Positions 35,744-60,876 of a stretch of DNA of 64,000 nucleotides are shown here, piece by piece (the stretch's first letter is position 1; every line of letters begins with the position of its first letter). This stretch comes from Lutjanus erythropterus (taxonomy: Eukaryota; Chordata; Actinopteri; Lutjaniformes; Lutjanidae): assembly GCA_020091685.1 (NCBI GenBank), contig CM034607.1:9483465-9547464 (forward strand), read 5' to 3'. The notes under the pieces are model-generated. The model worked only from the letters and a program-made list of their open reading frames with translations. It was not told the DNA's origin and made no database searches. The position numbers and the translations under genes are program-made.

Positions 35744-38300
35744 TACATAGATATTAGTCTCAGATCTTTAATTAAGTTTTTTTTTTTCCATTTTTTTCTA
35801 ATCAAGGTCTGTTTGATGGGATGTTCTAGGATAAAGATATGACAAATTAAAAATGTTCTTTAATGTCCTTTTTAGAGAAATGAAGTTGAGGATCAGAATT
35901 TTAAACAGCAGAAAGACACGTCAGAATACCACAGGTTCTCACCTAAGAGCTGCAAAATTAATGGAATTCATGTAGTAAGAAGAAAAATTGGCCTGATAAT
36001 AAACCTGAAGTGCCATTGTCGGCAGTGACTCATAAGCAAAGTTGTTCCCGTACCAATCCCAGTATCCCAAATGCCTCTGACACAGCCCAAAATGCCGGAT
36101 CTGGTATTGGCAAGTATCCAAGTCTATGCACCAATCCAATGTCACAACCCTCGAAATGCCTTTTTTTTTAACCTGAGCCACACCTTATAATAATGATAAC
36201 AATTACATCACATCCATACAGAGTTAGTAGTATGCATCTGTTAAAAAAAAATAAAAAAAATACCCCCCAATAACATCTGTATTATTTCATGCACTGGTAT
36301 CATATTAGTGCTAGGTATGGCAAAGCTCAGGTATCAGAACCAGCATCAGGAAGGAAAAAAAGGGTTTAGAACATCTCTACTTATGAGTTGAGAAACAGGC
36401 TAAAAAACTGGCTAAAAATTAAATGTGTGTTCTGAATTTGATACATCACAGAAACATGTTATTAACATATTATTAAAAAATAACTTAGTGTATAGAATGA
36501 GGTCTTGAAATCATGAAAAAGTGGGGCGTTTTCTCTGCCCTGAAACACCGCTTGTCCGTTCCACTGTTTCAAAGTCAAATATCACTATGACCTGAAAATA
36601 ACCTGAAACATGGACGCTCTGTCTAGCAGCTTTATTGTCCAGACATATCTGAGCCACCAGAGCCGTTGGACGGTGACAGGATGGTGTTCTTCTTTCTTCT
36701 GTGTTGGGTTGATGGAGCTGAAGTGAACTGCTGGACTGATGTGGACTGAGAGAGTGTTCATAATGGACCGTTAGGGAGGGTCACGTGTGTTCAGCGACTA
36801 TATTCTCACATTTATAATGAAGAAAAACTCCCTTCTTGTATCTTAACACTTTGATGTCCTGTCTCTCTTTTACTGCAAAACACAGGATATGATATGATGA
36901 TATACATCAGAGAGTGAGGAAGAAAGTCAACAAACATGGTTAAACGTAATGTGAATAAAATTTTATATTACCTCATCCATGAACATGATTTCTGCCTGAG
37001 TCATGTCAGATAGATTTTCATAAACTGTTTTAAAGCAAACAACTCCCATGATCCCACACTACTTTACAACATCATCTATGTGTTTTGTTATTGTTTTAGT
37101 GTGAGAAAGACCCCTAGCATACTACAAAAATGAGAAAACAACTGTACAATAGCCTACTTATGAATGATAGCTTAACAAAATCTTAGAAGAAACGGGAGAA
37201 TTTCTACTGCACATGTTCATGTATAATACCGTGCAGTGGCAGTCAAGTCCAGTGAGTTGGACATGGTGCAAAAAGTGCTAAGTTAATTGCAGGTATACTT
37301 GTAAGTTGCAGTGCAGCTATGGACCAGATAACTGAGACAGGTTTGAAGTATTTGTGGTGGTTTTAGTGAACAGTTTACCCTCTCGACTCCCCCTGGCCTG
37401 GTGCAGAGGGACCTACAGGGAGATGGCAGCTGACTTTATGTCTGCTGGATTTGTAAATGAGCAACTCATTTTTAATATTGTCAATATTGTGTTTATAGTT
37501 TGTTCCACTGGCCACAAGTGGGCAAAACAAGTCAATTATTACAGCTGTATTGCTCAATATAATTGCATAATGTTGCATATTCCATTTAAACGCAAAGCCA
37601 CATGCTTTTTTGGTTTGGTTTGGATTTGTATTACAGTGAATAAACTTGAAAGAGGAAAAAAAATGCTTGATTAATGACAGGGGAGAGAAGTAAACTACTG
37701 CAGAGCAGAGCCACAATGTAACCACTAGAGAGAGCTCTAAGTTAGGTAATCAGTAAAAAAAAAAAAAACACTTAAAGTCAGATACTCACCTCTCCTCAGA
37801 GACGGCTCTGCCCATCTGTTTAATGGCCTTCAGCCTTGAGACAGAGACCATCCATAGCTGGAAGCTGTCAGTTTAAACTCGCTGGACGAACGGCTGATAT
37901 CACCCAAAGGTCACACATTGAAACTCACCATCTGCCCGAGCTCAAGTATAGATATTACAAGCTGGTCCATCCTGTGTGATACAGTAACAGATAATGTAGA
38001 GCAGGTTAGTGTAATTACACTAAACCTGTGTACAGATCAAAGGAGCAGAAGGAGAAAGGAGTGATGGAACTAAAACAAACTTTGCATATACTGTCAGATG
38101 TTAAAAGAAAAAGAGATGTACTAATATAGGTTTGTGGACTTCCTACAGTATGTATTTTAATCAAATATACTAAATCAGGCATGAAATGTTTTGTTTCAGA
38201 GGATTATGATGACTGATACTCAATAAGCAGTATCATTATGGGTATTTTTTATCAATAAAATCCTAATGATAACCCATGCCTAGTACTGGTACACTGCTGG

Positions 38301-38520
38301 CAATGGTTGTAAAGTGTCACCTTTAGTTTGCTTACGCGAGAGTGTGAATGACCCTTTGAGCAGAGGGTTGCATGCTTCATTTCACCACCTGATAGTGCAT
38401 GAAAATGAGTTCAAGCTCTGCTCTCACGACCAATGAGATGAAGTTGGTTTTACATAATTACTTTAGGATTTCCTAAATCACTGATAGAAACCAAATATGG
38501 GTCCCAGTCTGAGGAAAAAA
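38301..38520 (+). promoter_or_regulatory. Upstream block shared by all four units (copy 1)
   Basis: About 210 bp running from 'tcacctttagtttgc' through 'atgcttcatttcaccacctg', 'atagtgcatgaaaa', 'accaatgagatgaag' (a CCAAT word) and 'aggatttcctaa' to 'gtcccagtctgag'. The same words occur in order at 45715-45930, 52516-52740 and 58097-58335. It lies about 1.7 kb upstream of the promoter. Whether similarity reflects function or only recent duplication cannot be told from sequence. Confidence 0.45.
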
Positions 38521-39750
38521 TACAGATATTGAGTCAAAATGAATCTTCTTGGGTTAAGTCGATTATTTCCTGCACCTAAAGTGTACGACTCACAATGATG
38601 CACTGTGGAAAACATTAAAAATACTGTTGGTATTTTGTTCTCGGTGGAATATAACGTAATATCAGTTTAATATATTTAAACTGATAAACTGGAGGATGAA
38701 GTGTCCCTTCATGGGCTGAGAAAATTCTCTTCTTAAGCTAAATAAACTGAATGAAAAGCTTAGCTGGATGCATCATCAGAAAGCTGAAAAAAGGCTGTTT
38801 TTCTGACATCATGAAAACGTTTTAGGCATGTGATTTTTACAGCACAGTGACAGAACAAACATATGATGATCTTATAGCATGTGATGCATTGTTATAGATT
38901 TAACTATACCAACAGTATACTGTATACTGTGTTTTATTTTTGATAATTTAAGTACGTTTTACTGCTTTTGCTTAAGATTTGAATGTGGGACACTAGTGGA
39001 ATATTTTCACACACAATCAAAAGAATTAAATTAATAATAATTAATAATTTTTCCACTGCAGTTATCTGGCAAATGCAGTCACAGAATATGATGCAATGTT
39101 ATAGATTAAAGTGCACAATATAATATAAAGTAGTTAAAGTGGAGTTTATTAGTATATTTTCTTATCATAGATTAAATTTTAGATGTTAGATTAGATTATA
39201 GATTAAATGAATGATCAAAGTCGTGCTTTTTCTCCCAGTGTTTTCATCACCCAGTACTCCCTGCTCCACCAGATGCCAACCCCTCCAGTAGTTACTTGTT
39301 TATGGGAAACAATAACATTACTCAAACTGTGTTGGGACGATGTAATTCACATCGTTACAATAGCTTTTGCCTGTTTCCCAATTTAGTGTAAAATTGTCAC
39401 AATTTCTATGTACTTCTTCAATGAACATGCTTCTTTTTTCTCTCTTATATCCAACATGGTGTTGAATCATTTCTCCACAGAGCTATAGGAAAGTGCAAAG
39501 CGATCCACTTGTATTTTATGACAGCGCCACAAGAGCGTGGCGATTTATTTTCAGGATAACAGGCTTAACTTTACATTGAAAGGCAACTGACAGTCTTACA
39601 GGCAAAAACTTGCTTCATCCATAGATTGAATAGGAACCCAACCTATTTAATATACCGTCTATCGCTTCAACACGCCATTCTGACTGAAGTACTTATTTAT
39701 GGACGTGCAATTCCTAGACCTATGTTATATATTTTGTTGAGTTGTGTACT

Positions 39751-39962
39751 TACGCTGATCAGCCACAACAATAAAACCACTGACAATGCTACCTGTTAAG
39801 GGGTGGGCTATATTAGGCAGCACGTGAACAGTCAGTAACTTCAACCTGATATGTTGGAGCAGGAAAAATTGAGAGTGTAAACATCTGATCAACTTTGACA
39901 AGGACTAAATTGTGAAGGGTAGACATCTGGGTCAGAGCATGTCCAAAACAGCAGGTCTAAAG
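39751..39962 (+). mobile_element. Truncated Tc1/mariner-type element
   Basis: 'tacgctgatcagccacaac' followed by 'ataaaaccactgac' is the typical end of a fish Tc1-like family. Further on, one frame reads FDKD*IVKGRHLGQSMSKTAGL, recognisable as the N-terminal helix-turn-helix region of its transposase, with an internal stop. The rest of the transposase is gone. It sits directly upstream of the lectin promoter block of unit 1 and is absent from the equivalent site of unit 2. Confidence 0.7.
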
Positions 39963-40075
39963 GTCAGTTTCACCATTATGATTTGTATGTTTCTGCATCC
40001 TGTTTTCTGAAGTCAGGAGAAAATGATTGTCATTGGGTTTGCATAAGTACTTTAGTTAAGGAGGGCAGAAACTGA

Positions 40076-40082
40076 ATAAAAG
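40076..40082 (+). promoter_or_regulatory. TATA-like box of the lectin gene, unit 1
   Basis: ATAAAAG lies within a block (39964-40240) conserved in units 1, 2 and 3. It is about 75 bp upstream of a splice donor also conserved in all three, so transcription would start near 40105. A kappaB-like GGAACTTTCC lies at 40142-40151 inside the first exon. NF-kappaB control of an immune lectin is plausible but inferred. Confidence 0.5.
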
Positions 40083-40104
40083 TAGGTGAACACTTACTGA
40101 AGGT

Positions 40105-40154
40105 CTGAGATGTGTTGGAACAACCTGCAGAAACAAAAGCTGGAACTTTCCAAG
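40105..40154 (+). other. Noncoding first exon (5' UTR) of the lectin gene
   Basis: The donor CAAG|GTAGGA after 40154 pairs with the acceptor TTTCCAG|G at 40388-40390, placing the start codon two bases into the next exon. The donor is conserved in unit 2 (after 46546) and unit 3 (after 54373, GTAAGA). The 5' end is estimated from the TATA-like box. Confidence 0.45.
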
Positions 40155-40391
40155 GTAGGACTCTCTGACCTCTGAGCTGAAATTGTTTGATAGATTTCCC
40201 TCACTACTTATCAAACTGTTTTCCTCAAATTTAGCTCAACATAAATCCAATGCACATATCAAATTATTCCACCCCTGAGTTTTTACATATAGATAAAACT
40301 AATCTTCTGTTACTGGTCCTGCAAAACACAGGTAATTCTTTTTCATATGTTGAAGAGAAATTAACGTGTTCTGCATGTTTTTGTTTCCAGG

Positions 40392-43201
40392 ATGAAGACG
40401 ATGCTTCTGTTTGTTCTCACTCTCTCAGGTCAGAGAAATAATTGTATGCGCATGTCGTGTGTAAGTGTGTGAGATAGACACTTTGAAATGCTTCAGAACT
40501 GAACCATGTTATCTCTGTGACAGTCTATAACAAGCCATCGATTTACATATTTAACAATGGTTATATTTGTTGCATGATTATTGTATTGCAGTAGACTACA
40601 TGAGTGTAAATGAAAAAATCCTTGATCCATCAGGGCTGTCTTTTCTACCTGCAAACAGCATAAGAGAGTACCACCATTTAAAGATTTCAAAGACCTGGGC
40701 TGAAGCTCAGAGTTACTGCAGAGAGAAGTTCACTGACCTCGCCACTGTAGACAATAGAGGCAACAACGACAGGCTGGTCAGTGTATCTAAGGGCCGTGGA
40801 GAAGAAGCATGGATCGGGCTTTATGATGACTTGACAAGATGGAAGTGGGCGCAGGGAAATGTAGCGATCAACACTGATAAAGATTTCAGCAACTGGGAAT
40901 CAAGTGAGCCTGTCGTTCAGCCCTACTTGCAGAGCTGCGTTTTGATGACAGAGAATGGGGGGTGGGGCACCTCTCTTTGTCGGACACTACATCCTGCAGT
41001 CTGCTATTCTGGTAAGAAGAACTTTAAGTGACTTCAGTTCCAAGTTGCTTTATTAGAGTTTAAAAATTTTCTTCAGGCGCTCTCAGGATATTGGTTTAAA
41101 ATACACACCACGTTCAAGCTCTTCGGATTCATCAAGGTGCAAACAGGGGTGTTTGAAGGATTTGAGGATACCTGAGGGCTCAGCCCAAACATCTGTAAGG
41201 GGCCCAGCAGGGAACCTCACATGTAAAACTTCATTTGATAAACAATCTGTGATTTGATGCTTTTTTTTTTTTTTTACCTTAATGTAGAAGAACTTATATT
41301 GAACCTTTATTGGGTTTTAGCTTGAACATTCAGCCACAGGTATTGTTCATGTCAACCTTTGCCTTTTTTAATGCTTTCTGTATGCACTCTGGCACCATGT
41401 TTACACTCAAAGTACGTGTTAATCATTGAAAAACTGTTTACTTGAATTAGGAATTGTGAATAAATACTACTACTACTACTAATAATAATAATAATGACTT
41501 GACAGCTTTGCTTCTAAAAACAGATGTCACAGTAACAATTGTTTGGTCACTAACAACTGCACATATTTGTCATGTGACATTTGCATATTTATTACTTTTG
41601 AATACATCACTTTACCTATCTTTATTTTCATTACAATGGATTCAGTACCCTTGTCTGATTCTACTGTCATTACTTTATGTATTCGGAGTATTGACGATAT
41701 AAATGTACTTTTCTTTACCAGAATAAACAGTGTCAATGTAGGCCAAAATGCCAATGCACAGTCCAATCCATTTTCTTCATTTTCTTGCTGTTTTCTTTTA
41801 GAACAAGGTCCTTCCAGGTATATTCTAGTGGAAAATAGGATGAAGTGGCAAGACGCCAAGACATACTGTAGGTCCACGTACACAGACCTTGTCAGTGTGA
41901 GGAACATGTCTGAGAATCAGCGCATCTCCTCACTTCTGTCAGAAAAAACCTGGATCGGTCTCCACAGAAAACACTGGACTCACTGGTCTGACCAGAGCCG
42001 CAAAACCTTCAGTAACTGGGACGAAAGTGGGCTTGACAGCAGTGCAGAATCATGTGCTATGATCAACACAGTCACAGGAAAGTGGTGGGAGGCTGACTGT
42101 ACGAGAAAGTACTACTTTGTCTGTCAAACGGTTCACGAGCACAAAACAACATTGAAGTTAAAGTTCCAGTCTGAGGCCGACCTGAACGATCCTGCTGTCC
42201 AGCAGCAGATCTTAGATCAGGTACTGTGAGTCTGAAGCTGCTAAATGTAATTTGCTGATAATGAGTTTGGTGAGGGTTGTTGGAGTGTAAAGTTCCACAC
42301 AGCTAAACTCTCAGTAGAATCCTCGTCCAACTCAGTGACGCTCAAGTCTTTTTTCTGACATGAAAACCCTCAAAGTAGTGTAAGCTAATTATTATCTTTG
42401 GTTTGAAAGTAATGCTAGCTTGCTATTGCGTGTTGTAAACTACTTAGCTGGCCATGCTAACATTTGGATGCTCTATAATAAAAAAAATAAACACTCTGTT
42501 AAGTCCATTCCTCACAAAGTTGCTCTTTTGTTTCTGTTTTTATTCTTGGTTTAAGGACACCAGTTCACAGTAGCTATGATGATTTTCAAGATTTAGCCTA
42601 AAATTTTCACATAGGTTAATAAAATTTATCAAAAGCTCATTATACTTCTTCGTTTTCATCATTATATTCTCTGCCAGGTGAAGAAGAGCAAAGGCTATAT
42701 GGATATTCACCATTTTTGAATTTTTGTTTCTTTTCAGCTGCATGCTAAGCTGGGAAAACATGTAATATCAGACTTTAAACTCCGCTGGATTGAGACAGAT
42801 GGGCAGACATTTCACAAGGAACAAAGGAAAGAGGAAGAGGAAGGTATTTCATTTGCATTTTTATTTTAGACATGAGAACATTCAGCACACTCATATCTGT
42901 TCAGTTATAAGCAATCAGTAAGATTAGCTTAGCAAAAAGACTGGAAATAGGGGAAAAAACTTAGCATATGCCTAGCCAATAACCAACAAGATAGGATGTA
43001 TTAATGACTGAGCCTGCGGTGTTGCTAGGCAGATTTTGTTACCTTTGGCCAGAGCCAGGCTGTTTCCCCATTTGCAGTCTTTGTCCTATGCTAAGCTAAC
43101 TGTATACTGGCTGTAGCTGTATATTTCCTGCACAGACACCAAAAGACTCTTTTAAACCCCATGATTTCTGTTTTCTGCCTGTTTTAGGGTCGACCAGCTG
43201 A
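40392..43201 (+). CDS. Secreted protein with two C-type lectin-like domains (5 coding exons)
   Basis: Predicted coding exons are 40392-40428, 40634-41011, 41802-42220, 42738-42843 and 43188-43201. All introns are GT...AG; phases 1, 1, 0 and 1 are compatible. The sum is 954 nt, 317 residues plus stop. Residues 1-19 form a signal peptide (MKTMLLFVLTL core) with no later membrane segment, so secretion is expected. CTLD1 spans about residues 22-138 (Cys41, 114, 128, 136; WIGL at 72-75). CTLD2 spans about 142-248 (Cys161, 223, 238, 246; WIGL at 189-192). Each has the two conserved disulfides but lacks the EPN or QPD motif that coordinates calcium and sugar in classical lectins, so ligand binding is uncertain. 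A charged tail (279-317, with FKLRW and TFHKE) ends in a Glu run. Fish have large families of such proteins, often annotated as CLEC20A-like or mannose-receptor-like; orthology was not established. It is the only intact member of the array. Confidence 0.85.
40634..41011 (+). CDS. Exon encoding CTLD1 of the unit 1 lectin
   Basis: A 378-nt exon between acceptor CATCAG and donor G|GTAAGAAG. The start is set by joining phase 1 to the signal-peptide exon (TCA G + GG). It encodes TWAEAQSYC, DLATV, WIGL and the C-terminal PAVCY cysteine. The open frame continues upstream into intron 1 without a methionine context that would suit secretion, which supports the spliced model. Confidence 0.85.
41468..41495. 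repeat. (CTA)n(ATA)n microsatellite in intron 2
   Basis: The corresponding site of unit 2 (48177-48235) has a clearly longer array, about 58 bases against 28, showing expansion or contraction since duplication. Confidence 0.9.
41802..42220 (+). CDS. Exon encoding CTLD2 of the unit 1 lectin
   Basis: A 419-nt exon between acceptor TTTTAG and donor CAG|GTACTG. It encodes DAKTYCRSTYTDLVSV, WIGL, WSD, SNWDESG, KWWEADC and FVCQT, then a post-domain segment ending AVQQQILDQ. The usual QPD/EPN position reads ESGLDSS. The open frame on the same strand starts far upstream in intron 2, but that part lacks domain features. Confidence 0.85.
42738..42843 (+). CDS. Exon 4 of the unit 1 lectin (charged tail)
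   Basis: A 106-nt exon between acceptor TTTTCAG and donor G|GTATTT. It encodes LHAKLGKH, FKLRWIETDGQTFHKE and a Lys/Glu-rich run. The terminal exon (43188-43201) adds GSTS and the stop TGA at 43199-43201. Confidence 0.8.
42885..43155. mobile_element. Foldback element inside intron 4 of the unit 1 lectin
   Basis: It contains 'gattagcttagc', 'aagactggaaatagggg' and, inverted, 'tttccccatttgcagtctt' and 'atgctaagctaac', so the arms can pair. It is the same family as 2872-3658. The unit 2 intron 4 lacks it, so it inserted after the duplication or was deleted there. Confidence 0.6.
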
Positions 43202-43311
43202 GCAGTCATTCTGCAGAGGACATCATGGTCTTCTTAAAAATTAACACTCTTCAATATTCAATGTTTCACTTCTCTTTGTAGCTTCACTACGTTTTCTACA
43301 CCATCACTGGC

Positions 43312-43317
43312 AATAAA
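43312..43317 (+). terminator. Polyadenylation signal AATAAA (proximal), unit 1
   Basis: AATAAA lies 111 bp after the stop codon. A second AATAAA is at 43648-43653. Neither is kept in unit 2, while unit 4 keeps the proximal one (60006-60011). Confidence 0.55.
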
Positions 43318-44598: not shown

Positions 44599-44620
44599 AG
44601 TGTTGGCCTATGTAATAATC

Positions 44621-44988: not shown

Positions 44989-45714
44989 CCTATTTAATAA
45001 TCACCAAATCAATTTATTGGTTGAGCTGACCAAAATCTAGCACTCTCTTCCACCCGTGTGTGTGTGTGTTGGTTGTGACACATATTGCAATTATCATATT
45101 AAGCCCTATGAAACAGAAATCAGAGTTCTAATTTGCTTCTGCATATTTCCATGTTTCCTGTAAAAGCAATTGACTTGGAGAGACTTGTTGTGGCAGACAG
45201 CGCTGAACAAGCATAAACACAACACCTCCCCACATATCTTGCAGTCGTTCAGTTTTAATCAAAACCACATGAACCAAAAAAGTTCCTCTTCTTTGTCTGG
45301 GAAGCAGAAATCTTCTAGCTTATAAAAGCATGCATCGTATTCTGTTTTACAGGAAGAAAACACAATTGGATTTTTGCTGTGAAACTTCAAAGAAATCAAT
45401 ATTTGTATTTTTCTTTGGCATATATTAAAAAGTGCATAATATGACAGGGATGTGAAGGTAAAAGGTTGAAAGGGTTGAAAAGACATTTGCATTTCATCTC
45501 AATTTTAATCAAAATTTAAAAGATCAACATTTAAAACTGGACTTACAATGTTTTCTTTATCTGAGCAATATTTTCAAACGACTACATGTAATGAGAAAAG
45601 TGTTGCTCACAGTCAAGTATAAGTCACTGTACACTGCCCAGCACCAAACTGCAGAGAGTCTTAATGTATTTTGAAGAGGATTAAAATGACTGGTACTGAT
45701 ACAATGCTTTCAAT

Positions 45715-45930
45715 GTCTGTCACCTTTAGTTTGCTCACATCCTGTAATAATGAATACCCTTTGAACACAAGGTCACATGCTTCATTTCACCACCTGATAG
45801 TGCATGAAAATTAGTTCAAGCTCTGTTCTCACGCCCAATGAGATGAAGATTTTGATTTACATAACTACTTCAGGATTTCCTCAATCACTTATGGAAACCA
45901 AATGGGTCCCAGTCTGAGAAAAAGCCAAAT
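45715..45930 (+). promoter_or_regulatory. Upstream block shared by all four units (copy 2)
   Basis: Same ordered words as 38301-38520. It is closer to the unit 3 copy (both read 'gtttgctcacatcctgtaataatg' and 'cacgcccaatgagatgaag'). Confidence 0.45.
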
Positions 45931-46473
45931 GTAGCATCTCATGCTTAACCTAACTCCATTGGTGAAATCCATAATTTTATCTCACACCCATTTGCCAGAC
46001 ATTCTGCATTAATTTGAACTCTAACTAACATGAAACAGGCAAACAAAAATAGTTTTTCTGACTTGAAGGAAACTTTCTTAATTTCTGATGACATACGGCC
46101 ATTTTATGATTTACTACAGCAAATATATTACAGATTTCAATAAAATATCTGAGTGTTGATGACAATGATTTCTGTCAAACATTAATTTAAATATATAAAC
46201 TCCTCCAAAAATAATCAAATAGCTCTTTAATGAGTTGTATAGGTATCTGTATGTCTGCCTCTTCACTTTCGTGAATGCTGTATGCTAATTCCTGCTGCTC
46301 TCATGTCTTTGGATTAATGAATTAAATAATTAAATTAATTCTTAATGACCAGTTAAATAACTCAATTTCACCATTATGATTTGTATGTTTCTGCATCCTG
46401 TTTTCTGAAGTCAGGAGAAAATGATTGACATTGGGTTTGCATAAGTACTTTAGTTAAGGAGGGCAGAAACTCA

Positions 46474-46480
46474 ATAAAAG
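46474..46480 (+). promoter_or_regulatory. TATA-like box, unit 2 lectin pseudogene
   Basis: ATAAAAG sits within the conserved promoter block, followed by a conserved first-exon donor after 46546. The exon reads 'aaagggaactttccaag' where unit 1 has 'aaagctggaactttccaag'. Confidence 0.4.
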
Positions 46481-46790
46481 TAGGTGAACACTGAAGGTCT
46501 GAGATGTGTTGGAACAACCTGCAGAAACAAAAGGGAACTTTCCAAGGTAGGACTCTCTGACCTCTGAGCTGAAACTGTTTGATAGATTTCCCTCACTACT
46601 TATCAAACTGTTTTCTCAAATTTAGCTCAACATGAATCCAATGCACATATCAAATTATTCCACCCTGAGATTCTTCAGGAGTTTTTACTTTCAGGCAAAA
46701 CTAATCTTCTGTTACTGGTCCTGCAAAATACAAGCAGTTCTTTTTATGTTGAAGAAAAATTAATGTGTTCTGCATGTTTTTGTTTCCAGG

Positions 46791-48201
46791 ATGAAGATGA
46801 CGCTTCTGTTTGTTCTCACTCTCTCAGGTCAGAGAAATGATTGTATGCGCATGTCGGTGTAAGTGTGTAGATAGACACTTTGAATGCTTCAGAACTGAAC
46901 CATGTTATCTCTGTGACAGTCTATAACAAGTCATCATTTCACATGGTTATATTTGTTGCATGTTTATTGTATTGCAGTAGACTACATGAGTGTAAATGAA
47001 AAACAGTCTTTTATCCATCAGGTCTGTCTGTTCTGTCTGCAAGAATCATCAGAGAGTACCATCATGTAAGGACAGCAAAGACCTGGGCTGAAGCTCAGAG
47101 TTACTGCAAAGAAAGTTCACTAACCTCGCCTCTGTACACAATAGAGGCAACAACGACAGGTTGCTCAGTCTATTGCAGGGTGGAAATCATGCATGGATCG
47201 GGCTTCATGGTGGTTTGAGCGGATGGAAGTGGGTGCAGAAATGTAGCGATCAACACCAATAAAGATTTCACCAACTGGGCATCAAGTGAGCCTGTCGTTC
47301 AACGCCTCTGCAGGTCTGCACTGTGATGACAGAAAATGGGAGTGAGGCCTCTAATTGTTGGGAACGGCATCCTGCAGTCTGCTATTATGGTAAGAAGAAC
47401 TTTTACTGATCTCTGTTCCAAGTTGCTTTATTAGAGTTTCAAAGAAAATATTCTGCAGGCATTCTCAGGCACGCAGGGGGAAAAGTTTTATTGAAAGCTA
47501 CCAATTAGTAGGACATGAGTTTAAAACAGTGGTTCTCAACCTGTTGTCCTTGGAGAAACGTGTAGTGTCTGAAGATGGCATAGATATTATTTTGTCTGAT
47601 GGAGCCATTCATTGAATAGGAAGACTCAAACTTAAAATAAGAAAAACGAAAAGAAAAACAAGGAAAAATTAGAAAAAATGTCCATTTGCACATTTGTTGG
47701 TATCTTTCAGTCCCAATAGGAATTAATTTGTCACCCTCTGTAGAATGCTGTCACAGAACATAATTTTGGTTGATAATAGCACAGTAACACCTGATTTAAT
47801 GCAATGAAGAGGTGAAATAATAGCTTTGTATTTAAATATGTTATTTACCACAACCGTAAGGTGCTGGAAAAGATTGCAAATGCTTGAAAAGTGCTTGAAT
47901 TTGACTTGGAAAAGGTGTTAGAACCTGAAATTGTGATTTTAGTTGACATGTTGACATGTTCAAGGACAAAGTCTTGGGGACCCTGTGATTTCTGAAGACA
48001 TCTGAGGGCTGAGCTCAAACAACTGTAAGGAACCTCACCTGTAAAATTGTATTTGATAAATAAGTTGCTTTGTTGCCACTCCAGCACCTTGTTTACTCAA
48101 AGTATGTGTTAATCATTGAAAAACTGAAATGGGTAACTGAAAAACTGTTTACTTGAATTAGAATTGTGAAAAAATATTACTACTACTACTACTACTACTA
48201 C

Positions 48202-48237
<36 letters not shown>

Positions 48238-49515
48238 CTCGAGAGCTTTGCTTCTAAAAACAGTAACAATCGTTTGGTCACTAACAACTGCACATATTTG
48301 TCATGTGACATTTGCATATTTATTACTTTAGAATACATCACTTTACCTATCTTTATTTTCATTACAATGGATTCAGTACCTGTCTGATTCTACTGTCAGT
48401 ACTTTATGTATTTGGAGTATTGTGATATAAATGTATCTTTATAGTATCAGTGTAGGTAAAATGCCAATGCACAGTCCAATCCATTTTCCTCATTTTCTCC
48501 CTGTTTTCTTTCAGAACAAGGTCCTTCTAGGTACATTCTAGTGAAAAACAGGACAAGGTGGCACAACGCTAAGACATACTGTAGGTCCACGTACACAGAC
48601 CTCGTCAGTGTGAGAACATGTCTGTGAATCAAAACATCTCCTCACTTCTGTCAGAAAAAAGCTGGATCGGTCTCCACAGACAACACTGACTCGCTGGTCT
48701 GACCGCGCCATAGATCCTTCAGTAACTGGGAAAGGTCAGCCTAACAACACTGGGCATCATGCTGTGATCAACACAGTCACAGGAAAGTGGCTGGATACTA
48801 AGTGCACGGAAAAGTACTATTTTGTCTGTCAAACGCTTCAAGACTACAAGCGACGTTGAAGTTAAAGTTCCAGTCTGAGGCCGACCTGGCGATCCTGCTG
48901 TCCAGCAGCAGATCTTAGATCAGGTACTGTGAGTCTGAAGCTGCTAAATGTAATTTGCTGATAATGAGTTTGGTGAGAGTTGTTGGAGTGTAAGTTCCAC
49001 ACGAGCTGGACTGACTCAGTGATAAGCAAGTCAATTTTTCTGATATGAAAGCCCTCAAAGCTAGTTAGCTGGCCATGCTAACATTTGCACGTTCTATAAT
49101 AACAAATAAACACTCTGTTTAGTCCATTCTTCTAAGTTTGCTCTTGTGCCTCTGGTTTTGTTCTTGGTTTAAAAGAAGAAGAAAAGCAAAGAAAGACTTA
49201 TGCGTTAAAGGTTGAATGATGTGATATCCACCATTTTAAAATTTTTGTTTCTTTTCAGCTGCATGCTAAGCTGAAGAAACATATATTACCAGACTTTAAA
49301 CTCCGCTGGATTGAGACAGATGAGCAGACATTTCACAAGGAAAAAAGAAAGAGGAAGAGGAAGGTATTTCATTTGCATTTTTATTTTAGATATGCACTTT
49401 CTTGGTGAGTGGTATTGATCGTCCCATCTAATCTTCCGTAGAAACCCCAGATATCAACTTCATGATAAAACCTCATGATTTCTGTTTTCTGCCTGTTTTA
49501 GAATCGGCCGGCTGA
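46791..49515 (+). pseudogene. Unit 2 copy of the two-CTLD lectin gene, frameshifted
   Basis: All five exons are recognisable with intact splice sites: 46791-46827, 47022-47389, 48515-48923, 49259-49363 and 49502-49515. The signal exon is the same length as in unit 1, but both CTLD exons are 10 nt shorter (368 against 378 and 409 against 419) and exon 4 is 1 nt shorter. A one-base loss after TACTGCAAAGAA in CTLD1 and another at GTGTGAGAACATG in CTLD2 break the frame. The CTLD2 exon contains GGTCAGCCTAACAAC, which would read GQPNN, a sugar-site-like motif absent from the unit 1 protein. Both AATAAA signals of unit 1 are altered here. If the indels were sequencing errors this could be a second functional gene, but many dispersed indels make decay more likely. 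Confidence 0.8.
48177..48235. repeat. (ACT)n(AAT)n microsatellite in intron 2 of the pseudogene
   Basis: About 10 ACT and 10 AAT repeats, the expanded counterpart of 41468-41495. Confidence 0.92.
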
Positions 49516-51260: not shown

Positions 51261-52515
51261 TTATGACCTATGCCTTGATATAGTCCCATGAGAGTGTGTC
51301 TGTGTGTATAGTAGGTTTGTGTTGGTAGAGGCACATGTTGCAATTATTAATTCCACATGAGAGAAATCAGAGTGCCATTTGCTTCTGCATATTTCCATGT
51401 TTCCTGTAAACTATCCAGCCAGGGAAAGACTTGTCACAGTGGCCAATAGCGCTAAATTAGCCTAAACATAACACCTCCCCAATCATTCAGCGAGACAGCT
51501 GCCCATTTACCTAACTGACTCTTTCTAGACTTGGACCTCCTAGTGAACACATTGAAACTGGACCACACTTTGTCTTCGCCCCTGATGGAGGTTTGACAAC
51601 AGGAATACAGTACATGGGTTGTTACTACAATGTAGTTACATTAGCAACAAGTAAGCTGCCCTTCCATCAGGAAACTCTAAATGACCATGGTACTGTATTC
51701 CCTGTTGATCTTGGAGGCTGGTGTTCAGTCCCAGTCCAGCTGTGTTCACTGGGGGCTACTGGCCCAGTTCTGTTAGCCGCTAATAGCAGCTAGGTTTGCA
51801 GAAACTCAGCCATCAGAGTCAAATCAGAGAGCATGCTCTTTATTAAATCTGATCCAGCTTCACCCAACTCAGTGAATCAAGTGAATTAAGTGAATAAATT
51901 CAAGCCAGAGGACCTGTAACCACTGGATTTTGGTGAGACAAAACATGGTTTGAGGTAGGGAACACCCTGGAAGACATACCAAAATAATACTGTATACTGC
52001 TGCTAGCTAGATAACAAAGAAATCTTAGCCTTAGCTGTACACACAAATAGTAACTAAGAAGACTGACTGACAGCTAGATGTCATGATATTATTGGTTGAC
52101 AGTGGTTGGTTCTAGGTTATGAAAGCATGCATCATATTCTGTTTACAGGAAGAAAGCACGTAATTGGATTTTTGCTATAAAACTTCAAAGAAATCGATAT
52201 TTGTATTTTTCTTTGGCATATATTAAAAAGGTGCATAATATGACAGGGATGTGAAAGGTAAAAGGTTGAAAGGGTTGAAAAGACATTTTGCATTTCATCT
52301 CAATTTTAATCAAAATTTAAAAGATCAACATTTAAAACTGGACTTACCAATGTTTTCTTTTATCTGAGCAATATTTTCAAACGACTACATGTAATGAAAA
52401 AGTGTTGCTCACAGTCAAGTATAGTCACTGTACACTGCCCAGCACCAAACTGCAGAGAGTCTTAATGTATTTTGAAGAGGATTAAAATGACTGGTACTGA
52501 TACAATGCTTTCAAT

Positions 52516-52740
52516 GTCTGTCACCTTTAGTTTGCTCACATCCTGTAATAATGTGAATACCCTGAACACAAGGTCACATGCTTCATTTCACCACCTGATA
52601 GCGCATGAAAATTAGTTCAAGCTCTGTTCTCACGCCCAATGAGATGAAGATTTTGATTTTACATAACTACTTCAGGATTTCCTAATCACTTATGGAAACC
52701 AAATATGGGTCCCAGTCTGAGAAAAAAGCCAAATGTAGCA
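52516..52740 (+). promoter_or_regulatory. Upstream block shared by all four units (copy 3)
   Basis: Same ordered words as 38301-38520 and nearly identical to copy 2. Confidence 0.45.
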
Positions 52741-54184
52741 TTGAAATGGATCCTCCTTAGTTAACCTGTTCTTTTCCTAAGTGTCTGACCTACATGAATG
52801 TACCTAAGACATTAAAAATATTGTTGCAGTTGCAGTGAGTGTGCCCCCAGTTTGAAGACGCACAGATGAATACCAGCATGGAAGCTAAGCAATGACCTGC
52901 TGAAGATAGCAACAAAATATCAAGACAGCCTTTTCCAACAGGAAACCACCCTTATAGATCAAATATTGCTCTCTCAATCAGTAATTTTATCTCTCCTGTT
53001 TATCTCACAACTGCAATTACTGAATCTCAAATGAGCGTATTACTTTTGTCTTACCTGAAACTGCAGGGAACAGCAGACATAGCAGACGAACACAGCCTAT
53101 TCCCCGATCTATGATCTAATGTCACCTGACCTAAAGGTGGTGCAAGACAGTTCAAGTGATGTGAGCTAGTTTTTCAATGTAGTGTTATAAAGAGTTTATC
53201 ATATAATTAACTTCTGTAGGAATGCTTACTTAACATACCCAGCTTACTATCTAAACCAGAAGCAAGAGAAGTGTAGCAGTAAGGTAGATGCTACAGGTGG
53301 AGGCTGCTGCCCTCTGGTGGTTGGAAGGATAAATAAGCCCATTAGTAATAATGGGTATATTTATAGATAGACATTTGACAGTTGTCACTAGGAAAATATG
53401 GTGATATGATGATATAACCATACTAAAAGAATTTAATTACACTAAAAGATAGTATATGTATACATTAATAAGACAATTAAAGCAGACATTTAAGAGCAAC
53501 ACAAAAGTTACTTCCCGAGTAACTACATTTATAATGTGGTAATTGGTGAAGTGATTCAATTAAATGAGAAATACGTAGCAATTATGCATCAAGAAATGAT
53601 AACAACAGTCCAAATACCAGTTGGAGCCATAGCCAGTACATTAAATAGGCTGAAATTCTATTTAATATACAAACTATGGTTGAAGTGAGTTGTTTCCTGC
53701 TGCCCTCAGGTAGCTGCAGGAACAATGAGTACAAGATTGGCCCATCATTGTAATTTGCCAATAACAACCAACAACAATAACTGTCTATTGACTGTGAATG
53801 TGAAGCTAAACCAGTTGTCTTAAAAACTGCCTGCCAGACTTCATTAACATATTGCTCAGTTTAACTGTTATGAACGTCTACTCCCATTAAAAGATGATTG
53901 ATGATTTCTTACAACTCATAAACAGACACTCATTTGGCAGACAGTCTGTGCTAATTTGAACTCTAACTAACGTGAAACAGGCAAACAAAAATAGCTTTTT
54001 CCGACTTGTAAGAAAAAATTTCAAAGGACACTGCAGCTGTAGCAGCGTGATCAAATAGCTCTTTAATGAATTGTATGGGTATCTGTCTGTCCGCCTCTTC
54101 ACCAGTGCATGCTTTATGCTAATACCTGCTGCTCTCATAGCTTTGGGTTGTAATATTCTTGACCAAGTTCAATGGCACACATTC
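52741..54184. other. Unit 3 spacer between upstream block and promoter
   Basis: Mostly noncoding. 53930-54120 matches the unit 2 spacer (45985-46300; 'aatttgaactctaactaac', 'gaaacaggcaaacaaaaata'). The 52800-53900 part has no match in unit 2 and would be an insertion there or a deletion in unit 2. No gene was recognised. Confidence 0.45.
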
Positions 54185-54373
54185 AATTTCACCATTATGA
54201 TTTGTATGTTTCTGCATCCTGTTTTCTGAAGTCATGAGAAAATGACTGACTTTGGGTTTGCATAAGTGCTTTAGAGACGCGGGGCAGGAACTGAATAAAA
54301 GTAGGTGAACACTTAGTGAAGGTTTGAGATGTTCTGGAACAACCTGCGGAAACAAAAGCTGGAACTTCCCAAG
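54185..54373 (+). pseudogene. Orphan promoter and first exon of a third lectin copy
   Basis: The block 'tttcaccattatgatttgta' to 'aaagctggaacttcccaagg' matches units 1 and 2, with ATAAAAG at 54295-54301 and a good donor (AAG|GTAAGA) after 54373. No lectin exon follows: homology ends about 30 bp downstream. Promoter activity, if any, would run into the minisatellite. Confidence 0.65.
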
Positions 54374-54414
54374 GTAAGATTCCTCCTCTGCTTTAAAACT
54401 GAAATATGGTACCT

Positions 54415-54991
54415 ATGGTGCCTTGCTTCAAACCGGGGTATCCTTCTCATGCAGCAGCACGCCGCGTGCGCTGCCTTGCTTCAAACCGGGGTATCCTTCT
54501 CATGCAGCAGCACACCGCGTGCTCTGCCTTGCGCTTGCTCATTAGTGTGCCAGTATTAGGTCTTTCTTTCCACGCATCCGTCTCATGCAGCAGCACGCCG
54601 CGTGCTCTGCCTTGTTTCAAACCGGGGTGTCCTTCTCATGCAGCAGCACGCCGCGTGCTCTGCCTTGTTTCAAACCGGGGTGTCCTTCTCATGCAGCAGC
54701 ACACCACGTGCTCTGCCTTGCGCTTGCTCATTAGTGTGCCAGTATTAGGTCTTTCTTTCCACGCATCCATCTCATGCAGCAGCACGCCGCGTGCACTGCC
54801 TTGCTTCAAGCCGGGGTATTCTTCTCATGCAGCAGCACACCGCGTGCTCTGCCTTGCTTCAAACCAGGGTGTCCTTCTCATGCAGCAGCACACCGCGTGC
54901 TCTGCCTTGCGCTTGCTCATTAGTGTGCTAGTATTAAGTCCTTCTTTCCACGCATCCATCTCATGCAGCAGCACACCGCGTGCTCTGCCTT
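54415..54991. repeat. Higher-order minisatellite, 189-bp period (53+53+83)
   Basis: The shared core CTCATGCAGCAGCAC recurs with CAT of the core at 54448, 54501, 54584, 54637, 54690, 54773, 54826, 54879 and 54962, giving spacings 53, 83, 53, 53, 83, 53, 53 and 83. Two 53-bp monomers (GCTTCAAACCGGGGTATCCTT type) and one 83-bp monomer (GCGCTTGCTCATTAGTGTGC type) form a unit repeated three times at exactly 189 bp. Since 189 is a multiple of 3, a plus-strand frame (54406-55248, 280 codons) stays open. The array end (GCTTCAGGCCGGGG) merges into the SINE-like copy next to it, which suggests the monomer arose from that element's flank. Confidence 0.9.
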
Positions 54992-55013
54992 GGTATCCGC
55001 TGACACGGATACC
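54992..55013. other. 8-bp perfect hairpin at the end of the minisatellite
   Basis: GGTATCCG (54992-54999) and CGGATACC (55006-55013) pair around CTGACA, at the junction between the array and the SINE-like element. It may be a former element terminus. Confidence 0.6.
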
Positions 55014-55019
55014 CTGCTT

Positions 55020-55157
55020 CAGGCCGGGGCTGGTAGCATTAAGGGCCTTGCCTAGGGGCCCACACTGTATAGATGGTAATGTCCTGACTGAGATTCGAAC
55101 CCGGGCCGTCCATGTCATAGTCAGTAGCATTAACCACTTATCTAAACAGCTGCTACG
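55020..55157 (-). mobile_element. tRNA-derived SINE-like copy 1
   Basis: On the minus strand an A-box-like TAGATAAGTGGTTAATGC and a B-box GGTTCGAATCT lie about 40 bases apart, followed by CTATACAGTGTGGGCCCCTAGGCAAGGCC, a conserved-core-like segment. Copy 2 at 56987-57117 has the same layout. It is not a plausible functional tRNA because the acceptor stem is not paired. Confidence 0.65.
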
Positions 55158-55250
55158 TATATGTATACATATGAACATGTATATATATGTGCGTATTTGC
55201 ATATGTGTGTATATATGCATGTGTGCATGTCTCCTCTTGTTCGTATAGGC

Positions 55251-56978
55251 CAGGGGTGTTTTGCAAAGTCCGGCCCGCGGGATGACTTTGCAAAGTGTGA
55301 AAATTACAGATGCAACGATTCCTGGAGTAATTCGAGTAATTTGATTACTAAAATATGTTTAAACCTGTACAACTGTACAGCAGACTGTGTTTGGCATGTG
55401 GGGGTTATTAAAGACCAGAGTACTGATGAGCACCGACATTTACATTTTGATATAATTTATTATCACACGGCTGCAGCATCTCTCCTCTCTGCGTCAGTGC
55501 AGCTCCTCCATACACACACGTACAGTACAGACACACAGAGGAGGTCAGTGTGATTCTCTGACCCTGTCTGCATCTGATATGTTGACTTTCTTCATCTGCA
55601 GGATATTTTATAAAGACAAAAAGACAAAACCTAACTCGTATTCTCGGTTTTTCCCCACATATTAATCCACCCGCGATTCAGTTTTCACAGCAGCAGAGAA
55701 GCCGCGTGTGGAGGAGACTGTTGTTAATGACGGAGTTTATTACAACAGAAACTATGACATCGACACCAACCAGAATTAAACAACTGTATAAGGAGGCCTA
55801 TACGTAAAACAGGAGAGTCTGTGTTTCTCTGTGAGAAGGAGAGGAGGACAGACTGATCACTAATCAATCACTGATACCGTCGTCCTCTCGGACTGATTAG
55901 AAAAACTAAAAATGCCAAAATTGGTGACAAACCAAACCCGGGTGTCCACACAAATAAAGTCTTTGTGTGAAACACTGCAGAGTTTAACATCGTGCTGTTT
56001 ACAGACAGTCTGCTGTCTGTAGTTTGACAGAGACACAGAGGGTCGTGTCTAGAAGGGAACCCTAGATCCGCGAAAGATCGCGCGAGTTTGATATTTTAGT
56101 AGAAATAACGGACACAAATCTCACAAATAAAGAGTTAGACACGACCGAAAAAGGTGCGCAGCTCCAAAAATAGAAAATCATGTCTCGGTGCCGATGTTTT
56201 TAATGTGGCGGGCCGCCATAAATAAAACACTATTCACTGAACCACAGAGAGTCACTGAAACACTGATCACTGACCTGCTGTGATAGAAAAAATACTCACA
56301 TTCTTTATTTAAGTAAAAGCACTAATACCACGATGTAAAAATACCTAATTACAATTTAAAAATCTTGTATGTTATTGTTTCCATTTTTGAAAAATCAACA
56401 TTTTTATTGCTGTTGTTGTACTTTAATTGTATTCTAATTGGTATTTTTTGATGACTAAATACAGACCTGCAAACTCATAAGAGGAGAAAAAGGTGGCATG
56501 TTGGTAAACCAGTCCCCTGTCCTCTGGGGGTCTGGGAGCGTCTGTCCTGCTCCAGAAGAAAAATGTTGTGATTTTAACATGTTAACAAAACATCCTGGTG
56601 ACTGTTTCAGTTAAAAGAGTTAGTTCCATCTTCTGTTTGTGGTTTCTGCAGACATTACTACCTTTACTTTTACCTTTGTACTTGAAAAAAAGTAAAAAAT
56701 TAAGTAAAAACAGTAAAAGTAAATCTACAGTAAAAGTAAAGTTACTTTACTGAGTATTTTTACTTTAGCAATTTACCAATTTACCATTGTTCTTAAATAA
56801 AGCAAAAGTAATGTAATAGAAAAACAGAACGTGAAGAACACTCAATATTTCTTATCTGATTACCTGATTAATCAGCAGAATAATCGATAGATTATGCTTT
56901 AATTTTACTGGTCCAGCCCACTTGAGATCAAATTGGGCTGTATGTGGCCCCTGAACCAAAATGATTCTTACACCCCTG
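55251..56978. mobile_element. hAT-type nonautonomous element, 1728 bp, with 8-bp target duplication
   Basis: The termini CAGGGGTGT (55251) and ACACCCCTG (ending 56978) are inverted. The right end carries 'ggcccctgaaccaaaatgat' and 'agatcaaattgggctgtatg', typical of a common fish hAT family. Flanks GTATAGGC (55243-55250) and GTGTAGGC (56979-56986) are an 8-bp duplication with one mismatch. Internally, 56280-56800 resembles another CAGAGCTGG/AAAAGTA-rich family, suggesting nesting. No transposase frame was seen. Confidence 0.75.
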
Positions 56979-56986
56979 GTGTAGGC

Positions 56987-57117
56987 TGATAGTACTAAAA
57001 TCCTTGCCTAGAGGTCCACACTGTATAGATGGTATTGCCCTGACTGGGATTCGAACCCCGACCAACCATGTCATGGTCAGTATCGTTGACCACTAATCTA
57101 AACAGCTGCTGCGCAAA
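56987..57117 (-). mobile_element. tRNA-derived SINE-like copy 2
   Basis: Same family as 55020-55157. The B-box region GGGGTTCGAATCCC is better preserved here and the A-box-like part reads TAGATTAGTGG. Both copies are followed downstream by 'catgaacatgt' and TA/TG-rich repeats, so the two may be tandem duplicates later split by the hAT insertion. Confidence 0.65.
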
Positions 57118-57129
57118 CATTTGCATGAA

Positions 57130-57183
57130 CATGTCTATATATATATATATGTGTATACCTGTACGCGTGTGTGTGTGTGTATA
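57130..57183. repeat. (TA)n/(TG)n compound microsatellite
   Basis: Short TA then GT arrays after SINE-like copy 2. A similar TATATG-rich run follows copy 1 at 55158-55225. Confidence 0.8.
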
Positions 57184-57830: not shown

Positions 57831-58096
57831 TGCTGTTTAACGGCCTTCAGCCTTGAAATTGAGACCATGATGGCTGGAAGTTGTCAGCTTTAACTCACTG
57901 ATTAGAGCAGGTAAGTGTAATTACTCTAGACCTGTGTTAAGAAAACACAGACTGAAGGGGCACCAGGAGAAAAGAGAGAATAAACTAAAATACACTTTGA
58001 GATGTTTCAAAAGAAAATGGATTTTGATAAAAATGTATTGACATGTTTTATTTTACTACATGAACATGGTTATAATGTCAGATACAGAGACTTCTT

Positions 58097-58335
58097 GCAA
58101 TGGTTGTAAAGTGTCACCTTTAGTTTAGCTTACATAAGAGTGTGAATAACTGAGCAGAAGGCCGCATGCCTCATTTCACCACCTGACAGTGCATGAAAAT
58201 GAGTTCAAGCTCTGTTCTCACTACCAATGAGATGAAGCTGGTTTTACATAATTACTTTAGGATTTCCTAAACCACTAATAGAAAACAAATATGGGTTCCA
58301 GTCTGGGAAAAAAGGCAAATGTAGAGTCGAAATGG
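58097..58335 (+). promoter_or_regulatory. Upstream block shared by all four units (copy 4)
   Basis: Same ordered words as 38301-38520, including 'ggttgtaaagtgtcaccttt', which only copies 1 and 4 share. No gene remains next to it in this unit. Confidence 0.4.
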
Positions 58336-58372
58336 ATCCTCTTTAGTTAAGAGGTTTGTTTCCTGCAACTAC

Positions 58373-59349
58373 CAGTGGTGGACAAAGTACTCAACCCCAG
58401 TACTTGAGTCAAAGTATAGATACTCCTGGTCAAATATTACTCAACTACAAGTGAAAGTTGCTCAGTCAAAATTTTACTTGAGTTAAAGTACTAGAGTACT
58501 TGCTTTTAAAAATACTTAAGTATTCAAAAGTACAAATTACAAAGTACATTTTCTAATATCAATACATGCTGTATTGTTTTCATGATGCATTTACAGAAGC
58601 TTGTAACTCTCTGAAACCATCTAATGATGCACTGATGCTTGTAGAACCACTCTGCTAAACAAAGTCTATAGAAACACCTATAAAAACTTCAGCATAGAAA
58701 TACAATCAAAACCAAAAAGGACAGTTATTGTCATTTTCTGATGTAACTGTATTAAAATCACATGATAACATTAGATTGAAGATAACTGTAAGAAGTTCTC
58801 CAAGTCTGTTAAATAACTGAGATTTCTTTCTGTCTTCAGAGGCAGTATATTTACATGAATTATGCTGATGAAAACAATCCAACTTTAAAAGCTACCTGGA
58901 ATAATGAATAATTATAATAACATCTTGAGATTTAATTTTGTCTTTCTCCTGCCGTCACCATTACCGCTTTTTGTCTGAATGAAAGAAGGAGAGCTTGCTT
59001 GTTCTTGTTACAGAGAGCGCCTGGATGATGTATTTCCACTTTTACATCAGTCCCATTTGAGAGGAGCTACTGTGATTGGTTTCCTTTTGTGAGGAACACA
59101 GCATGTGACCAACTGCATTTTAGAAAAGAAAAAAACACCAACAGCTGACTTCAAAGCTCAGTCGAAAAGTAACAACAACCTTCCTACAAATGTAGTGGAG
59201 TCAAAAGTACAATATTTGTCTTTGAAATGTAGTGGAGTGAAAGTCAGAAGTTTCCAAAAAAACAAATACTCAAGTAAAGCACAGATACTCAAAAAATGTA
59301 CTTAAGTACAGTACTCAAGTAAATGTACTTCACTACTGTCCACCACTGG
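58373..59349. mobile_element. hAT-type nonautonomous element, 977 bp, perfect 8-bp target duplication
   Basis: It begins CAGTGGTGGACAAAGTAC and ends GTCCACCACTG. The perfect duplication GCAACTAC lies at 58365-58372 and 59350-59357. The subterminal ACTTGAGT/ACTCAAGT and AAAAGTAC words are typical of an abundant fish family. No transposase is encoded. It interrupts unit 4 where the other units run uninterrupted. Confidence 0.9.
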
Positions 59350-59428
59350 CAACTACATGTGTCCAACCAACATTAATGTACTGTGTAAAATGTTAAAAAC
59401 ACTGTTGGTGTGATAAAATAACATTTTA

Positions 59429-59590
59429 CAGTGGTGGAAAGTAACTAGTACTGTACTTAAGAACAAACTGACAGTACTATATACTTCAACCCCACAACAT
59501 CTAAGAGGCAAATATTGTACTTTTTACTCTACTACATTTGTCTGACAGCCTTGGTTACTGTTACTTCAGACTCTTCCTGTGAAAACCATG
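59429..59590 (+). mobile_element. hAT-like fragment (CAGTGGTGGAAAGTAAC end)
   Basis: The left terminus is clear and the interior has 'tactttttactctactacat'. The right terminus was not found. Confidence 0.5.
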
Positions 59591-59732
59591 TATCTATCCC
59601 AACATTTAGGTTTTTATTATTTTTTTTATTTTATTATTTTTCTGATAAACTGAAGGATTCAGTGTTGCTTTGTGGGTTGAGGAATTTCTCCTACTTCTTA
59701 AAGTGTGACTCCAGCTTCAGGTTTGCATAATT

Positions 59733-59966
59733 AGCGGTGGGCAAGAGACTGAGAGAGAGGGCGGGTTGGGGCTACACAGGACATCCACTGCAGGGTGTGT
59801 GGTATGGTGGAAACACGGGAGTAGATTTTCACCCTTGTCCCATTCCACTCCCACAAAAATACTCCCACCCCATCTCCTTCCCATGACAGAGTAAAAGTAA
59901 AAATCCTGCCTCGCCTCAATCTCAGAAGAATGACTCCCGTCCCATTCCCATGAACACTCTTCGATA
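59733..59966 (-). repeat. G-rich dispersed repeat, reverse copy of 13850-14090
   Basis: The reverse complement carries 'gggaatgggacgggagtca', 'tttttgtgggagtgg' and 'gtgaaaatctactcccgtgt' in the order seen at 13850-14090. It separates the upstream and 3' UTR remnants of unit 4. Confidence 0.55.
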
Positions 59967-59984
59967 AGAACACAAGTTTTACAT

Positions 59985-60400
59985 ATTTTCTACACCATCA
60001 GTGATAATAAATGTGTGTTCATGTATTTGGTTGCATACTGTGTAGTTTTTTTTTACTCAAAATATTAATTTCACTGGATCTTTTTGCATGTTTGCAGTTT
60101 AAATGCAAATGTTGAAAATACAGATTGCAGCATGTACTTCAGTGCATGTAGTGAGGTTTTAAATGAGTTAGAAATATACAAACATGTGTATGTTGTATTT
60201 AAATGTTTTATGAGTGCTTGCTGAGTGCTTTGAGATTTCACATCTTTTAATGCTCGATGCTTTGCACTCTTTGTTCTGGCTTTCAAATCTGTGACCCTGT
60301 TAATGATGAACATCATAATTAAAAATCTGTTATAATTCTTTGAAAGGAATTGTGTTTTATCTTTTGTTTGTAGCAATGACCTTTTTTTTGTATGGTACTT
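59985..60400 (+). pseudogene. Unit 4 lectin 3' UTR remnant
   Basis: 'ttttctacaccatcagtgat', AATAAA at 60006-60011, 'tgtatttgg', 'tttcactggatc', 'tttgttctggcttt' and 'tttatcttttgtttgt' match 43290-43690 of unit 1. No coding exon is attached. Confidence 0.7.
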
Positions 60401-60412
60401 ATTACACAGATA

Positions 60413-60416
60413 GACA

Positions 60417-60451
<35 letters not shown>
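60413..60451. repeat. (CA)n microsatellite
   Basis: CA dinucleotides preceded by 'agatagacaga'. It marks the right edge of detectable lectin-array homology. Confidence 0.93.
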
Positions 60452-60453
<2 letters not shown>

Positions 60454-60876
60454 GAGAGATTAAAAGTGATGAAAATGATTGAAATTGTGCTTTTGGCAGA
60501 GTTAGGATCCAGTTTAATTATTAATATTGATCTTAACCTCTTGTATGACTAAGACAACACTTTGACCTTGCAGATGAGGAGTTAAAGTACCACTATGTTT
60601 GATTAAGATGCCTGTCTGTGTAGTGTGTGTAGAAAAGAAAAAAATATGATTTAGCCTTACTTCAATCATTGGTTTAAACAGAGAGAAAGTATAATTAATA
60701 ATTTCAACAATATAGCAAAAAGTAAAGTATGTGTTGTGATGATCCCTTTTCTGTCTGGTGTTAAAAAGTCATGGGGAGCATAATGTTTCTCTACAGAAAG
60801 CATACTCCAAAAAATAATGAGGTATAATTAATGTAAGGTGTTTGGACCAACATTAGCATGGTATTAAATGGCTTTG

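Follow-up and report, generated by a model that had tools for sequence, protein, structure and literature searches.

A tandem array of a dual-CTLD lectin gene in Lutjanus erythropterus: one intact-looking copy, three damaged relatives and possible assembly errors

Introduction

The macrophage mannose receptor proper combines Ricin-type, FN2 and eight C-type lectin-like domains (CTLDs) with a membrane anchor. A group of dual-CTLD proteins from Fugu, group F1 (FDC-F1 to F7), was described by Zelensky and Gready 2004 (PMC514892), and the available parts of that paper present its members as soluble and fast evolving, with two or three CTLDs and without a transmembrane domain, and as having initially been mistaken for mannose-receptor fragments. 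In the same parts, at least one CTLD is said to retain the Ca/sugar-binding residues, which is a reported property and not a stated definition of the group. Here we describe a tandem array of a dual-CTLD lectin gene in Lutjanus erythropterus, within a window of 64,000 nucleotides (the whole stretch of DNA analysed; C17:9483465-9547464, on contig CM034607.1 of the 937.6 Mb genome assembly GCA_020091685.1). An earlier note, made from the letters of the window alone, had proposed four units caught at four stages of decay. A decaying series of this lectin family was not found described in the open-licence literature, covered mainly through titles and abstract openings. For fish immunity, the array represents another locus of a fast-changing lectin family.

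Organization of the array

The presence of a four-unit array is confirmed. Self-BLAST of the window places copies of an upstream block at 38276-38629, 45686-45937, 52487-52826 and 58090-58371, and a whole-genome DNA search with the first of these (a capped search that passes over very common words; 4 candidates, 4 scored) returned 4 matches, every one inside the window. The promoter/exon-1 piece has 3 matches genome-wide, corresponding to units 1-3. Since the matches to block and exon 1 are confined to the window, they are locus-specific copies and not dispersed repeats. The fourfold occurrence of the block, as claimed in the earlier note, is thus borne out by both searches, while the observation named there as fatal to the claim, that units 3 and 4 share dispersed repeats only, does not hold for the block and exon 1. 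According to self-BLAST, the completeness of the gene pieces falls along the array from unit 1 to unit 4. The locus is ordinary in kind, with one intact-looking lectin gene beside three damaged relatives, and the evidence supports a tandem array in which a fish lectin has undergone birth and death, with locus-confined copies of which some are intact and some dead. The features of unit 1 are as follows (UTR, untranslated region).

37816..38084, + strand: far-upstream pieces, common to unit 4 (self-comparison)
38276..38629, + strand: upstream block (self-BLAST, genome search)
39964..40154, + strand: promoter-proximal segment and predicted noncoding exon 1, donor after 40154
40391..40428, + strand: exon 2, start codon 40392 (gene model)
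40634..41011, + strand: exon 3, CTLD1 (gene model)
41802..42220, + strand: exon 4, CTLD2 (gene model)
42738..42843, + strand: exon 5, conserved tail (gene model, relatives)
43188..43201, + strand: exon 6, coding part with stop, then 3' UTR (gene model)

At the level of the gene model, unit 1 is the complete gene that had been announced, with a predicted noncoding exon 1, five coding exons, GT-AG introns, a start and a stop. Just upstream of exon 1, the stretch 39750-39963, presumably a Tc1/mariner-like fragment, ends where the homology of unit 1 to units 2 and 3 starts. Units 3 and 4 are reduced to the following pieces.

52110..52826, + strand: unit 3, upstream tract with block (self-BLAST)
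53926..54401, + strand: unit 3, proximal upstream segment and exon 1 with donor (alignment, genome search)
54419..57142, no strand: minisatellite and repeat cluster after unit 3 exon 1 (self-BLAST, repeat scan)
57833..58371, + strand: unit 4, far-upstream pieces and block (self-comparison)
58373..59348, no strand: insertion in unit 4 with 8-bp target duplication (self-comparison)
59349..59701, + strand: unit 4, upstream homology resumed (to unit 1 38572-38736), interrupted (self-comparison)
59986..60401, + strand: unit 4, piece matching the unit 1 3' UTR at 70.6% (self-BLAST)

Neither unit holds recognisable lectin coding sequence: a tblastn search with the unit 1 protein (E<=10) left unit 3 without a match, and the sole match in unit 4 spans 14 residues on the opposite strand (E 4.5). 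Besides the block, unit 3 retains the promoter/exon-1 segment with its donor (54050-54401), and no homology to the remainder of the lectin gene was found downstream of its exon 1, so that its description as promoter and noncoding first exon only holds in self-comparison and tblastn. That of unit 4 as an upstream part with block plus a 3' UTR piece likewise agrees with the self-comparison, in which five pieces are collinear with unit 1 37816-38736 and are followed by a jump to the 3' UTR at unit 1 43292; a single loss of about 4.5 kb from the interior could account for this. The repeat cluster at 54419-57142 contains a 189-bp minisatellite (3 copies) and direct repeats of about 160 bp bracketing 1.8 kb. 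The insertion at 58373-59348, which we take to be hAT-like, is nonautonomous with terminal inverted repeats, and a second repeat-like stretch lies at about 59430-59640. Elsewhere, a diverged 31/62-bp tandem repeat array occupies window positions 33202-33681; Rfam and tRNA scans gave no matches.

Unit 2 and its frameshifts

The gene body of unit 2 is full-length and aligns with that of unit 1 over all exons.

45313..45937, + strand: upstream tract with block, near copy of unit 3 52110-52741 (BLAST, MAFFT)
46362..46577, + strand: promoter-proximal segment and exon 1 (alignment)
46790..49515, + strand: gene body, ten frameshifting gaps as assembled (alignment to unit 1)
46790-46827, 47022-47389, 48515-48923, 49259-49363 and 49502-49515, + strand: exons (alignment to unit 1)
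47723-47951: transposon-like piece in intron 3 (40 of 1840 first-look genome candidates scored)

In the earlier note, unit 2 was a frameshifted gene with all splice sites. The sites are indeed kept (acceptors and donors of exons 2-5, with the exon-1 donor and exon-6 acceptor judged by eye) and the frameshifts are present in the assembled sequence, but their genuineness is doubtful. The exon alignment has 13 gaps in unit 2 (ten of them frameshifting) and none in unit 1; translated as assembled, unit 2 meets its first stop at codon 78 and 13 stops in all. Despite 133 substitutions, none of the 299 comparable codons carries a nonsense change, for which the simulated neutral chance is 0.4% if 132 changes fell in unit 2 and 4.4% if 66 did. 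The small noncoding gaps (<=3 bp) are also one-sided, with 24 missing in unit 2 and 5 in unit 1 (p 5e-4). Gaps that stay in frame number 3/14 in coding and 1/29 in noncoding sequence (p 0.09).

The ratio of insertions and deletions (indels) to substitutions was compared with that of three near-identical duplicate pairs of the same assembly, two of them natural-looking and the third an inverted pair (C10:38785156-38790500 and its inverted copy C10:41465647-41472000, near the contig end). The 625-base tract shared by units 2 and 3 has 15 indels to 8 substitutions by BLAST and 13 to 15 by MAFFT. For the natural-looking pairs, the longest alignments give 3 to 29 and 2 to 15 (sum 5/44), and the second, more diverged alignments 9 to 31 and 11 to 77 (all rows 25/152). 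The tract therefore differs from them whether aligned by BLAST (p 3e-6 for the longest alignments, 4e-7 for all rows) or by MAFFT, where the ratio is still high (p 6e-4 and 2e-4, respectively). No difference is seen from the inverted pair (p 0.81 by BLAST, 0.20 by MAFFT), which has 58 indels to 37 substitutions, with gaps on both copies (33 and 25), and is probably a false duplication with unpolished sequence, its mis-assembly status being itself deduced. The available part of the Vertebrate Genomes Project paper (PMC8081667) names short consensus-calling indels as the commonest pre-polishing errors in continuous-long-read assemblies and as a cause of frameshifts, and reports that some copies stayed poor since reads mapped to the better copy. 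Unpolished consensus errors may explain much of the frameshift damage of unit 2.

Several observations weigh against this explanation. The small-indel load between the noncoding sequences of units 1 and 2 (29/177 substitutions) is not above that of the natural-looking pairs (p 0.64; all rows p 1.0), so that the oddity of these indels is limited to their one-sidedness, and the gaps of the inverted pair hit both copies, unlike the pattern in unit 2, which concerns mostly one. The count of 1-bp gaps in unit 2 relative to unit 1 shifts with the aligner (23:4, 24:3 or 31:8). Homopolymer context fails to separate error from mutation, as the 1-bp gaps lying in homopolymers are 30/42 for the inverted pair, 9/11 for the unit 2-unit 3 tract, 20/31 for those missing in unit 2 and 5/8 for those missing in unit 1. 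The transposon-like piece of intron 3 offers a weak test: it has 2 small deletions, a maximum also reached by 3 of the 27 other copies, and these 27 carry 11 altogether. Nonsynonymous divergence (dN) is moreover about equal to synonymous divergence (dS), as neutral decay would also give.

Divergence and mosaic history

Units 1 and 2 differ by 7.3% in noncoding and 13.9% in coding sequence (Fisher p 6e-9), reaching 14-16% in the two CTLD exons; dS is 0.11-0.18 and dN/dS 0.7-1.3, depending on method and masking. Positive selection was considered for the coding excess and not adopted, because dS is raised and the noncoding stretches near exons are equally divergent (intron 4 13-14%, proximal 3' UTR 13%), for which reason a conversion mosaic explains the excess. 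When polarised by 19 relatives under the longer exon-3 model, 38 of the amino-acid differences have the relatives' state in unit 1, 22 in unit 2 and 22 in neither; departures at conserved columns, with the same relatives and model, are 20 against 24, and the polarisation is indecisive.

The relationships among the units conflict along their length. In the block, units 2 and 3 are 4.2% apart and units 1 and 4 13.3%, with the other four pairs at 16-22%, while in the promoter/exon-1 piece units 1 and 2 are 1.6-1.8% apart and units 1 and 3 12.7% (private changes: 24 in unit 3, 3 in unit 1, 1 in unit 2). Over 13 stretches, noncoding divergence between units 1 and 2 ranges from 1.6% to 14.6% (heterogeneity p 1e-11). 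The upstream tract of unit 2 is thus near that of unit 3 and its gene body near that of unit 1, a mosaic of which exchange among copies would be the simplest cause. With such exchange, divergence cannot serve as a clock for the series. Unit 3 is moreover truncated at its 3' end and unit 4 deleted internally, so neither of the two can be taken for the other at a more advanced stage. What stands of the four stages of decay is the tandem birth and death; the readable history does not, given the different lesions, the mosaic and the possibility that the frameshifts of unit 2 are assembly errors.

Origin of the array

The account that we favour, and consider fairly probable as a whole, is that duplication of one dual-CTLD lectin gene gave rise to a small tandem cluster. 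Unit 1 would be the intact gene and unit 2 a full-length second copy, its coding exons diverged without nonsense change and its frameshift damage probably in large part uncorrected short-deletion error of the assembly. Unit 3 would be a copy that lost its 3' part and now borders on a repeat cluster, and unit 4 one that was deleted internally and received a transposon. Later gene conversion or unequal exchange may have mixed the copies, as the mosaic suggests, in which case the units are not successive stages. We tentatively suggest that unit 2 could be a second functional lectin gene, whose reading frame is open in the fish itself and interrupted only as assembled; if so, the similarity of promoter and exon 1 next to the divergent CTLD exons would mean that the control piece is homogenised by exchange as the binding domains grow apart.

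The reading of the earlier note is possible but somewhat doubtful. It makes unit 2 a true pseudogene, put out of frame by genuine small deletions, and has the remains of dead genes increase in age from unit 2 through unit 3 to unit 4. It accounts for the ten frameshifting gaps as assembled, the near equality of dN and dS, the loss of coding sequence from units 3 and 4 and the ordinary total indel load between units 1 and 2, but not for 133 substitutions with no nonsense change among them, nor for the one-sidedness of small gaps within introns and UTR too, regions in which decay should affect the two copies equally. In the exon-1 segment polarised by unit 3, moreover, unit 2 has 1 private substitution to 3 in unit 1 and is not generally fast, and the lesions of units 3 and 4 differ. 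That part of the array, for instance the 625-base tract, is the assembler's false tandem duplication appears unlikely: the flanks of the tract are only 77-88% identical (BLAST), less than two alleles of the same region should be, and the bodies of units 1 and 2 differ by the percentages given above, even though the tract is indel-rich and substitution-poor and long-read assemblies have been shown to contain false duplications and copies left unpolished, according to the available part of PMC8081667. Most improbable is a block that is a mobile repeat, with units 3 and 4 as chance repeat clusters that never were gene copies. Repeat-derived sequence is dense around both units, but the four matches of the block and three of exon 1 all lie at this locus, and several collinear segments tie each of units 3 and 4 to units 1 or 2; for block and exon 1, the capped whole-genome search (very common words skipped) rejects it. 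Under the favoured account, a pseudogene series that looks convincing can combine real deletions with what are probably consensus errors, and without raw reads two internal statistics can flag the latter, namely a bias of small noncoding gaps towards one copy and the indel/substitution ratio relative to duplicates of the same assembly.

The predicted protein of unit 1

With exon 3 starting at 40634, in agreement with the N-termini of relatives, unit 1 encodes 317 amino acids; an alternative in-frame acceptor (exon 3 start 40592) adds 14 residues (331-aa model). Pfam identifies two Lectin_C domains and nothing else above its cut-off, and the lone NCBIfam match of exon 3 is far under cut-off (19.1 of 1861 bits). 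In the 331-aa model, no 19-residue window exceeds 1.6 on the Kyte-Doolittle scale, i.e. no membrane anchor is seen, and a signal peptide is likewise not seen with this crude test. Secretion is suggested by the MKTMLLFVLTLS start common to relatives, and we presume that the product acts in recognition as a soluble protein. At the binding-site positions, CTLD1 has EPV and WGT, and CTLD2 has SGLD in place of the GQPD/N of relatives and WEAD at the WND site. The canonical sugar-binding triplets are therefore lost from both CTLDs of the sole intact copy (40634-42220), which makes Ca-dependent sugar binding by unit 1 doubtful.

A protein search of the genome gave 122 matches, the best beyond this locus having an E of 2e-22 and 38% identity. 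As matches elsewhere are much weaker, units 1 and 2 are the only two gene bodies of this subfamily found. Lectin matches fall in both copies of the inverted C10 pair, and paralogue counts may be inflated as a result.

Comparison with known lectin systems

The ten best of 957 relatives are fish proteins (51-63% identical over 55-99% of the query), most of them with mannose-receptor-like names; their source fish we take to be spiny-rayed. Unit 1 has full-length homology, tail included, to the fish dual-CTLD proteins named "macrophage mannose receptor 1-like" or "C-type mannose receptor 2-like", which have the same two CTLDs and C-terminal tail (19 aligned, hand-picked from the best 120 of the 957). 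It differs from them at the binding sites, lacking the E/Q-P-N/D triplet present in CTLD1 of 12/19 and the Q-P pair present in CTLD2 of 13/19. Relatives from Zoarces viviparus carry the tags VZT92_013891, 013892 and 013894 and lie on contigs of equal length, which suggests a tandem array in that species too.

With the macrophage mannose receptor family (MRC1/MRC2), unit 1 has CTLD homology in common, and C-type mannose receptor 2 provides its best solved-structure matches by sequence. The domain set of the macrophage mannose receptor is however absent according to Pfam and hydropathy, unit 1 having two CTLDs only and no further Pfam domain above cut-off. In relation to Fugu group F1, unit 1 differs in having no clear Ca/sugar-binding residues in either CTLD, but resembles the group in its architecture, to which it can be likened by description, with two CTLDs and nothing else recognisable.

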